Below are positions 10,364-43,379 of a stretch of DNA of 64,000 nt, in pieces. The stretch is from Sulfuriroseicoccus oceanibius (lineage in GTDB: Bacteria; Verrucomicrobiota; Verrucomicrobiia; Verrucomicrobiales; SLCJ01), in assembly GCF_010681825.2 (NCBI RefSeq), contig NZ_CP066776.1, positions 310,001 to 374,000 of the forward strand. Reading direction: 5' to 3'. Position numbers and translations under genes: made by a program. Below the pieces are notes generated by a model, which was not told the DNA's origin, did no database searches, and saw nothing but the letters and a program-made list of their open reading frames with translations. Every line of letters begins with the position of its first letter. Position 1 is the first letter of the stretch.

Positions 10364-10503
10364 ACCACCACGCTGCGGCAAAGCCCCATACCGTTCAGCT
10401 CCTGCATCGTCGCCCGCCCATCGCGAAGCGCCAGATCACCATCCCAATCGTCGTCAGTGGGCAACGGGACTTGCCGGGGAAACACCCCGGCCCCATCGCA
10501 CTA

Positions 10504-10598
10504 CCACCGTCGATCGCAACGCCACCGTCCATCGCACTACCACCGTCCATCGCGCCGCCACCGTCCATCGCGCCGCCACCGTCCGCCACCGTCCGCCG
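10504..10598. repeat. 18-bp tandem repeat (minisatellite)
   Basis: Four 18-bp units of the form ccaccgtcSatcgcNNNN start at 10504, 10522, 10540 and 10558, followed by a decayed partial unit. The small antisense open frame here is only the repeat read through. A three-hairpin element begins 32 bp further on. Confidence 0.85.
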
Positions 10599-10629
10599 CA
10601 TTCCGCCGCACCGTCGCGCCTCAGTACTC

Positions 10630-10722
10630 CGTCGCGAAGCGACGCCCTACCGGCTAGCCGGAGGTTTCAACCTCCGGTATCAACACCGCACAACATCTCG
10701 TCCCGAAGGGACGGTTTACCCC
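10630..10722 (+). repeat. Three-hairpin palindromic element, copy 1
   Basis: Three short palindromes in fixed order: cgtcgc-gaa-gcgacg (10630-10644), a 9-bp stem ccggaggtt/aacctccgg (10658-10677) and cgtccc-gaa-gggacg (10699-10713), followed by gtttacc. The same order occurs at 31952-32041 and inverted at 35436-35524. Non-coding, between converging genes. Confidence 0.85.
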
Positions 10723-31683: not shown

Positions 31684-31745
31684 GATCCCGGATCCCCTCA
31701 GACACCTCGCCAGCACCAAGCTTGGCTAACGCCCACTCCTTGGTG

Positions 31746-31944
31746 CCGCACCCGCCGCACCCGCCGCACCCGCCGCACAGGCCGCACAGGCCGCACAGGC
31801 CGCACAGGCCGCACAGGCCGCACAGGCCGCACAGGCCGCACCTTCCGACCTTCCGACCTTCCGACCTTCCGACCTTCCGACCTTCCGACCTTCCGACCTT
31901 CCGACCTTCCGACCTTCCGACCTTCCGACCTTCCGACCTTCCGC
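31746..31944. repeat. Compound microsatellite: 9-bp and 8-bp units
   Basis: Three ccgcacccg units are followed by seven ccgcacagg units (9 bp, 31746-31835) and about thirteen ccttccga units (8 bp, 31841-31944). Open frames on both strands here consist only of the repeat translated. A three-hairpin element begins eight bases after it. Confidence 0.95.
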
Positions 31945-31951
31945 AACCCGC

Positions 31952-32041
31952 CGTCGCGAAGCGACGACTTACCGGCTAGCCGGAGGTTTCAACCTCCGGT
32001 TCCGTCACCCAATCCAGCTCGTCCCGAAGGGACGGTTTACC
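31952..32041 (+). repeat. Three-hairpin palindromic element, copy 2
   Basis: Hairpins at 31952-31966 (cgtcgc-gaa-gcgacg), 31980-31999 (ccggaggtt/aacctccgg) and 32020-32034 (cgtccc-gaa-gggacg) are followed by gtttac, in the same order and nearly the same spacing as copy 1. The linkers between hairpin 2 and 3 differ, while the stems are identical. Confidence 0.88.
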
Positions 32042-32080
32042 CCTCGACGAGGCTCCGATGCGAGCGCCACCCGGCATCGA

Positions 32081-35377: not shown

Positions 35378-35435
35378 CCACGCAAACTACCTCATTCCGT
35401 CCCCCCAACGCACGCAGGATCTGCGGGGCATCAAA

Positions 35436-35524
35436 GTAAACCGTCCCTCTGGGACGAAGCCCTCTTGCTCGCAGAACCGGAGGTTAAAACCTCCGGCTAA
35501 CCAATAACACGTCACTTCGCGACG
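35436..35524 (-). repeat. Three-hairpin palindromic element, copy 3 (inverted)
   Basis: Read on the minus strand, the order is the same as in copies 1 and 2: cgtcgc-gaa-gtgacg (35524-35510), ccggaggtt/aacctccgg (35496-35477), cgtccc-aga-gggacg (35456-35442), gtttac. One stem carries a G-T wobble and one loop differs, so it has diverged but kept its folding. It directly precedes the headless higA remnant. Confidence 0.86.
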
Positions 35525-39747: not shown

Positions 39748-39823
39748 TGGGGTGACTGACGGGGCTCGAACCCGCGACAACCGGAATCACAATCCGGGGC
39801 TCTACCACTGAGCTACAGTCACC
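39748..39823 (-). tRNA. tRNA-His (GTG)
   Basis: A full cloverleaf is visible on the minus strand: acceptor GTGACTG/CAGTCAC, D arm GCTCAGTGGTAGAGC, anticodon stem CCGGA/TCCGG with loop TTGTGAT, T arm with GGTTCGAACCC, and an encoded CCA. The G before the acceptor (G-1) faces discriminator C73, the identity element of tRNA-His. A T-run follows the CCA. Confidence 0.97.
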
Positions 39824-43305: not shown

Positions 43306-43379
43306 GGCGAGATAGCCAAGTGGTAAGGCACGGCTCTGCAAAAGCTGCATCGCGGGTTCGATTCCCGCTCTCGCCTCCA
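43306..43379 (+). tRNA. tRNA-Cys (GCA)
   Basis: Acceptor GGCGAGA/TCTCGCC, D arm GCCAAGTGGTAAGGC, anticodon stem CGGCT/AGCTG with loop CTGCAAA, T arm GGGTTCGATTCCC, discriminator T73 and encoded CCA. U73 and the GCA anticodon identify cysteine. A terminator follows eight bases after the CCA. The accessory tract up to 46.8 kb begins just beyond. Confidence 0.97.

Follow-up and report, generated by a model that had tools for sequence, protein, structure and literature searches.

Few transposase systems are regarded as domesticated, and REP sequences with their RAYT enzymes belong to these few. In the closest described systems, the GTAG REPs with their BIMEs/REPINs and the RAYT REPtrons, extragenic palindromes occur in tens to hundreds of copies, singly or as inverted pairs and at gene 3' ends, with one family per Y1 gene and each gene flanked by its own family (PMC3733652, PMC6006769, PMC8266576). 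The repeats described here from Sulfuriroseicoccus oceanibius share these features, and their central hairpin also has an NTAG foot, but they form three hairpins in about 91 nt (97 aligned copies), whereas a GTAG REP is one hairpin in 20 to 40 nt. At the outer hairpins, each family has feet of its own in place of GT[AG]G, and the enzyme belongs to TnpA-Y1 subclass 1.2, with the motif Y---Q--HH, unlike the class 2 RAYTs with Y---NP.

Subclass 1.2 has been described as proteins of about 148 to 150 aa with the signature DH[IV]H, WQ and Y---Q--HH, present in few copies per genome, without IS properties and without REPs, and found mostly in Cyanobacteria and Bacteroidetes in the published survey (PMC6006769). 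In contrast, the enzymes examined here, mainly from Verrucomicrobia, Planctomycetes and Acidobacteria, have conserved three-hairpin flanks together with dispersed copies. The ends of IS200/IS605 elements (IS608, ISDra2) are comparable in having a homologous HUH/Y1 enzyme and hairpins with nearby tetranucleotides, but here both ends have one layout in inverted orientation, each family has a single tnpA, and dispersed nonautonomous copies predominate. TIRtrons and the composite GTAG-1/stem-loop repeats of Pseudomonas, the composites numbering hundreds of copies in P. putida and P. fluorescens, likewise flank Y1 genes with long inverted repeats containing internal palindromes (PMC3733652); however, the composites join a GTAG-1 unit to an unrelated stem-loop and go with RAYT-type enzymes, and no cross-phylum a-b-c layout has been reported for them. 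In the open-access papers, no three-hairpin elements or subclass 1.2 REPs are described; subscription papers and ISfinder were outside the scope of this search, and priority is not certain. No biochemistry for subclass 1.2 was found in the literature.

Anatomy, number, and placement of the three-hairpin element

The window, a stretch of 64,000 nt (G000:C1:310001-374000), lies in the single-contig, 3.50-Mb genome of S. oceanibius (G000). A preliminary description had reported an element a-b-c-GTTTAC in three copies, the third inverted, with stems kept and linkers varying, and all three copies are present at the positions given. Each is about 91 nt long and consists of hairpin a (CGTCGC-GAA-GCGACG), a 9-bp stem b (CCGGAGGTT/AACCTCCGG), hairpin c (CGTCCC-GAA-GGGACG) and GTTTAC, separated by linkers that do differ among the copies. 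The G-T wobble and the changed loop ascribed to one copy belong to copy 3, in stem a (CGTCGC..GTGACG) and in hairpin c (AGA), respectively. The features are as follows, where R1 is a covariance model of the family built from 40 copies.

10630..10721, + strand: copy 1, whole element (R1 match 1-91, 95.0 bits, E 9.8e-21; sequence)
10630..10644, + strand: copy 1 hairpin a, CGTCGC-GAA-GCGACG (sequence; fold), with the 3' foot CTAC where the family consensus is TTAC
10658..10677, + strand: copy 1 hairpin b, CCGGAGGTT-TC-AACCTCCGG, with CTAG in front (sequence; covariation)
10699..10719, + strand: copy 1 hairpin c, CGTCCC-GAA-GGGACG, plus GTTTAC (sequence)
31952..32042, + strand: copy 2, whole element, the original finding (R1 match 98.1 bits, E 1.8e-21; sequence)
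31952..31966, + strand: copy 2 hairpin a, followed by aCTTAC (sequence; fold)
31980..31999, + strand: copy 2 hairpin b, with CTAG in front (sequence)
32020..32040, + strand: copy 2 hairpin c plus GTTTAC (sequence)
35434..35524, - strand: copy 3, whole element, inverted (R1 match 93.0 bits, E 3e-20; sequence), between divergent genes in the gene model used here (context)
35510..35524, - strand: copy 3 hairpin a, CGTCGC-GAA-GTGACG, containing the G-T wobble (sequence)
35477..35496, - strand: copy 3 hairpin b, with TTAG in front and loop TT (sequence)
35436..35456, - strand: copy 3 hairpin c, loop AGA, plus GTTTAC (sequence)

Folded as single-stranded DNA, the three copies form three hairpins with z scores of -3.7 to -4.2, and no shuffled sequence folds equally well. 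The stem-b pattern occurs at 38 sites of the genome and at none in a reversed control, and the window copies score 93 to 98 bits (E about 1e-20) against R1, which together exclude a chance origin. Over the whole window, Rfam at its gathering threshold returned only two tRNAs, a tRNA-His at 39748-39822 (-) and a tRNA-Cys at 43306-43379 (+), and no family at the elements.

Scanning the 3.5-Mb genome with R1 yielded at least 102 copies, a lower bound since 150 of 1,777 first-look candidates were scored, and this bears out the large genome-wide number foreseen from three copies. Hits scoring below about 30 bits come mostly from good copies read on the opposite strand, as the element taken whole is close to a palindrome. 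In the order of the finder strand, hairpin a (6 bp, loop GAA) is followed about 2 nt on by TTAC, then by CGGYTAG, hairpin b (9 bp), a linker of 19 to 22 nt, hairpin c (6 bp) and GTTTAC.

The stems are conserved as pairs, not as letters, in the 97 copies aligned by sequence only. Standard pairs fill 97.1% of pair cells, and both partners vary in 11 of the 21 pairs, with changes such as G-C to A-T in stem a, G-C/T-A/A-T/C-G in b, and T-A to C-G in c. The covariation score of 0.291 compares with 0.097 +/- 0.006 in shuffles and at most 0.098 with slid partners. The stems thus covary strongly, and the compensated changes that had been proposed as a check are present.

Enrichment at gene ends, another proposed check, was also found. 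Under a gene model based simply on codon usage, 101 of the 104 copies fall between genes, compared to 25% of random positions (75% fall inside genes). Most lie at gene 3' ends: the neighboring genes are convergent at 71 copies, tandem at 25 and divergent at 5, although the convergent excess is descriptive only, since the analyzed segments were chosen for carrying elements. In high copy number and extragenic location, the family therefore resembles REPs. This placement would also suit functional RNA hairpins, either bidirectional terminators or stabilizers of mRNA 3' ends, to which the transposase link would be incidental, and roles in termination and mRNA stability have been described for REPs (PMC3733652). 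Against such an RNA role, no T-run follows hairpin c in the three window copies, where no Rfam family reaches threshold either; the reading as an intrinsic terminator was rejected on the missing T-run. A terminator role also predicts neither three fixed hairpins nor a repeated family-specific tetranucleotide.

Many copies are single elements, and many others form tail-to-tail pairs. The genome has 18 tail-to-tail neighbors, 15 of them with a gap of 12 to 24 nt, and such inverted pairs at short spacing are typical of REPINs and BIMEs. The pairs often combine two subtypes, CGTCGC/CCGGAGGTT/CGTCCC with CATCGC/CCAGCGGAT/CGCGCC, and in this they resemble the heterodimers of E. coli BIMEs.

Short tandem arrays, mostly of 6- to 13-nt units in up to 56 copies with a site-specific unit, adjoin the outer, hairpin-a side of some elements, as at window positions 10493-10620 and 31745-31943, at locus L017 and at other places of the genome. 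They stand on the a side of 14 of 104 elements and on the c side of none, compared to 4.3% of random intergenic positions, and the association was not reproduced in another genus.

A Y1 transposase bracketed by inverted copies

Seven Y1_Tnp matches were found in this genome. One of them, the IS200-like HUH/Y1 gene tnpA (151 aa, G000:C1:3195947-3196402), is bracketed by an inverted pair of the element:

3195853-3195944, + strand: element copy on one side of tnpA
3196441-3196532, - strand: element copy on the other side of tnpA

The elements stand a few nucleotides from the stop codon and 38 nt from the start codon, in the order a-b-c-GTTTAC, tnpA, GTAAAC-c'-b'-a', the same tail-in geometry as in the dispersed pairs. 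Their stems b differ in letters (CCTGCGG/CCGCAGG and CCGGCGG/CCGCCGG), again with compensation. The protein matches Pfam Y1_Tnp with 96.7 bits, NCBIfam NF033573 (IS200/IS605 transposase) with 79 bits (cut-off, 55), and by profile the TnpA structures of ISDra2 and IS608; it scores 25 bits against REP_Tyr_transpos, below the cut-off of 80. Its signature, DHVH, WQ and YIETQREHH, is that of subclass 1.2. The link to a RAYT gene that had been suggested thus stands as far as a Y1 transposase gene lies between two inverted copies, but the enzyme is a TnpA-Y1 of subclass 1.2, not a class 2 RAYT. The class 2 RAYT of this genome (L019, G000:C1:2538582-2541830; 196 aa, REP_Tyr_transpos 88 bits) has no three-hairpin element beside its gene.

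Two more subclass 1.2 tnpA genes, at L016 (C1:3491022-3494363) and L018 (C1:3230113-3233454), have several copies each of their own three-hairpin family with unrelated stems, and in a sister genome one subclass 1.2 gene is also adjoined by an a-b-c layout with unrelated stems. The L016 repeats had been considered as a second, canonical GTAG REP family, a reading rejected because they are hairpin b with NTAG within a three-hairpin layout.

The grouping of this TnpA with class 1 and the geometry common to element pairs and the bracketed gene would also be expected of an ordinary IS200/IS605-type insertion sequence, with tnpA transposing as one unit together with its terminal hairpins, and with MITEs, formed by deletion, making up the dispersed copies. 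Unit transposition should leave near-identical copies in one genome, yet each element family has a single tnpA, of which the genome contains no near-identical copy, the three subclass 1.2 TnpAs being 37 to 38% identical. The ends are inverted, unlike the asymmetric left and right ends of IS200, and many copies are single half-units. We consider this explanation quite unlikely.

Instead, the three repeats very probably represent a REP-like nonautonomous family of a subclass 1.2 TnpA, which would process the folded single-stranded element in the manner of a REPtron. The sequences show that element and TnpA occur together, and they show the geometry of the elements and the pairing of their stems. 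With its repeats, inverted pairs, extragenic sites and one family per Y1 enzyme, this system is most likely a REP/REPtron, in which a Y1 gene is flanked by its own repeat family. The REP/BIME-like character proposed in the preliminary description is supported in this form, but these are not textbook REPs, as each has three hairpins over about 91 nt and lacks a GTAG foot at the outer two. Since two classical features, the single GTAG-foot palindrome and the class 2 enzyme, are missing, the family is not placed in any described REP family; its protein does fit subclass 1.2, except that REP-like flanks, published as absent there, are present here.

The same layout in other bacteria

A search of named genomes gave 80 close TnpA relatives, mainly from Verrucomicrobia, Planctomycetes and Acidobacteria, with some from Bacteroidetes, Geotalea and others. 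The motif Y[IV]--Q--HH is present in 80/80 of them, Y---NP in 0/80 and DH[VI]H in 67/80. Class 3 TnpA-Y1 enzymes with the CnGA foot are also known from Planctomycetes and Acidobacteria, with several atypical hairpins by the gene and up to ~600 copies, but they are 178-aa proteins with Y----Q, NHVH and W[TA] (PMC6006769), whereas all 80 relatives have Y---Q--HH, which was outside the search criteria, and WQ, which follows partly from the construction of the search.

Without any model, three hairpins in the right order were found in 46% of 158 tnpA flanks, compared to 0.4% of shuffles and 0.5% of distant stretches. At 49 of 78 loci, the two flanks are inverted repeats of each other, with the cut-off set at the 99th percentile of left-versus-other-right controls. 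With a broader covariance model, R2, about 22 of 32 loci held out from its construction have an element next to the gene and in the correct orientation, loci of Bacteroidetes and of a Kiritimatiellota MAG among them. Dispersed copies number at least 105 in Planctomycetes bacterium Pan216 and at least 77 in Verrucomicrobium sp. BvORR106, both of them outside the 57-genome set considered next.

Among these 57 genomes of the order, elements occur in 34/34 TnpA-positive but in 6/23 TnpA-negative genomes (Fisher p = 7e-10), a test weakened by the fact that most of the 17 double negatives belong to one genus (p = 0.0015 with that genus counted once). Element number ranges from 1 to at least 75 in the TnpA-positive genomes. 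Of the six TnpA-negative carriers, four are incomplete MAGs and two are at least 95% complete, G008 with 2 copies and G022 with 53. Five tnpA genes are present in G048, each adjoining at least one element, and 13/13 sampled dispersed copies fit the family of one of them; at its loci L201, L202, L203, L204 and L206, some copies have a second stem, GGCCTG..CAGGCC, inserted in the loop of hairpin b, which lengthens the hairpin and so keeps it. A layout that brackets tnpA genes, inverted, in several phyla and a presence that tracks the transposase both speak against the elements being RNA hairpins incidental to it, which we regard as very unlikely.

In the loci compared, across phyla, each tnpA has its own version of the layout, with a repeated family tetranucleotide behind hairpins a and c and NTAG before hairpin b. 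The tetranucleotide is the same behind a and c within an element and differs between families (TTAC, CTGA, CGCAT, AATT, TCAT and others). IS608 also uses TTAC. The feet of a and c agree as exact 4-mers in 41% of elements, compared to 5% across loci, with a mean match of 3.09 versus 2.33 +/- 0.09 in permutations. TAG stands ahead of stem b in 48 of 63 elements, most commonly as GTAG (exact in 17/63), and as this foot was anchored on AG, the AG is partly circular but the T is not. In this genome, the stem-b foot is mostly TTAG or CTAG and the outer feet are TTAC/GTAA. With this foot, hairpin b looks like a canonical REP, flanked by a and c as side hairpins that carry the motif of the family. On the opposite strand, the family motif lies 5' of its hairpin, which is the position of GTAG in REPs and of the guides in IS608 (PMC8266576). 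An assignment to the CGTC-tagged REPs (PMC3733652) was rejected, because CGTC lies inside stems a and c and becomes CATC, GGTC or CGCG elsewhere.

Subclass 1.2 is probably, though with less assurance than the reading of the three repeats themselves, a phylum-spanning class of REPtrons whose substrate is a three-hairpin REP with a central NTAG foot and a shared side tetranucleotide; the layout would have stayed constant through many concerted replacements of stems and tetranucleotides. This history would provide hundreds of natural TnpA/substrate pairs from which to read the code for recognition and cleavage. As stems and tetranucleotide are particular to each enzyme, these pairs are a ready data set on site choice and cleavage by single-strand transposases, and they could serve to test specificity change via tetranucleotide change, as done for IS608. 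The results point to an overlooked branch of bacterial REP/transposase systems: a sister enzyme group filed as lacking a DNA partner has one in several phyla, with an architecture that is very regular and more elaborate, and this accounts for a large class of intergenic repeats in the genomes of Verrucomicrobia and Planctomycetes.

Proposed mechanism and evidence on mobility

By analogy with IS608 and the E. coli TnpA-REP system, TnpA may bind its element once this has folded as a single strand of DNA, as could happen on the template of the lagging strand. Guide and cleavage site would be the NTAG in front of hairpin b, the repeated tetranucleotide (in this family, TTAC), or both. TnpA would cut and rejoin strands at this candidate site and so copy or move elements, singly or as inverted pairs, with tnpA itself staying in place as the REPtron. 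Copies may secondarily serve as structured 3' ends of transcripts.

Movement of the element by TnpA is thus a proposal, and we looked for it in orthologous loci compared piece by piece (G048/G020/G059), where no clean empty site and no precise single-element insertion were found. In orthologous intergenic regions of these three species, at roughly 83 to 92% identity, many elements are in common, and other loci are rearranged; some keep their hairpins but have replaced linkers, one locus holds a truncated remnant, and one element pair is identical at 205 of 207 positions compared to 92% outside. Elements common to orthologous loci, one of them nearly unchanged, would be expected of functional RNA hairpins, and elements common to species of one genus, with conserved stems and different linkers, also of relics, a family that was mobile in the past but is now only passed on by inheritance, with gene conversion reshaping it. 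The tnpA frames, however, are intact (79 of the 80 relatives have no stop), and near-identical tandem arrays and high copy identity occur in this genome, so a purely relic family appears unlikely, and we retain the reading of a REP-like family with its REPtron.

Two tandem arrays, G000:C1:582030-582916 and 3178418-3179884, consist of ~399-nt units with element copies in both orientations per unit, and in Pan216 (L066 2515-2981), five direct element copies, one per 95 nt, lie just upstream of tnpA. The arrays of both genomes indicate local amplification. A 385-nt indel between two species (L230 and L199) does not show movement of an element alone, since the pair sits in a larger unit with CCAATGCCATCAGGGAAAA inverted ends. 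There (L230 about 790-1175 versus L199 1384), a pair of elements of another family lies within the CCAATGCCATCAGGGAAAA-ended unit, possibly a composite mobile unit.
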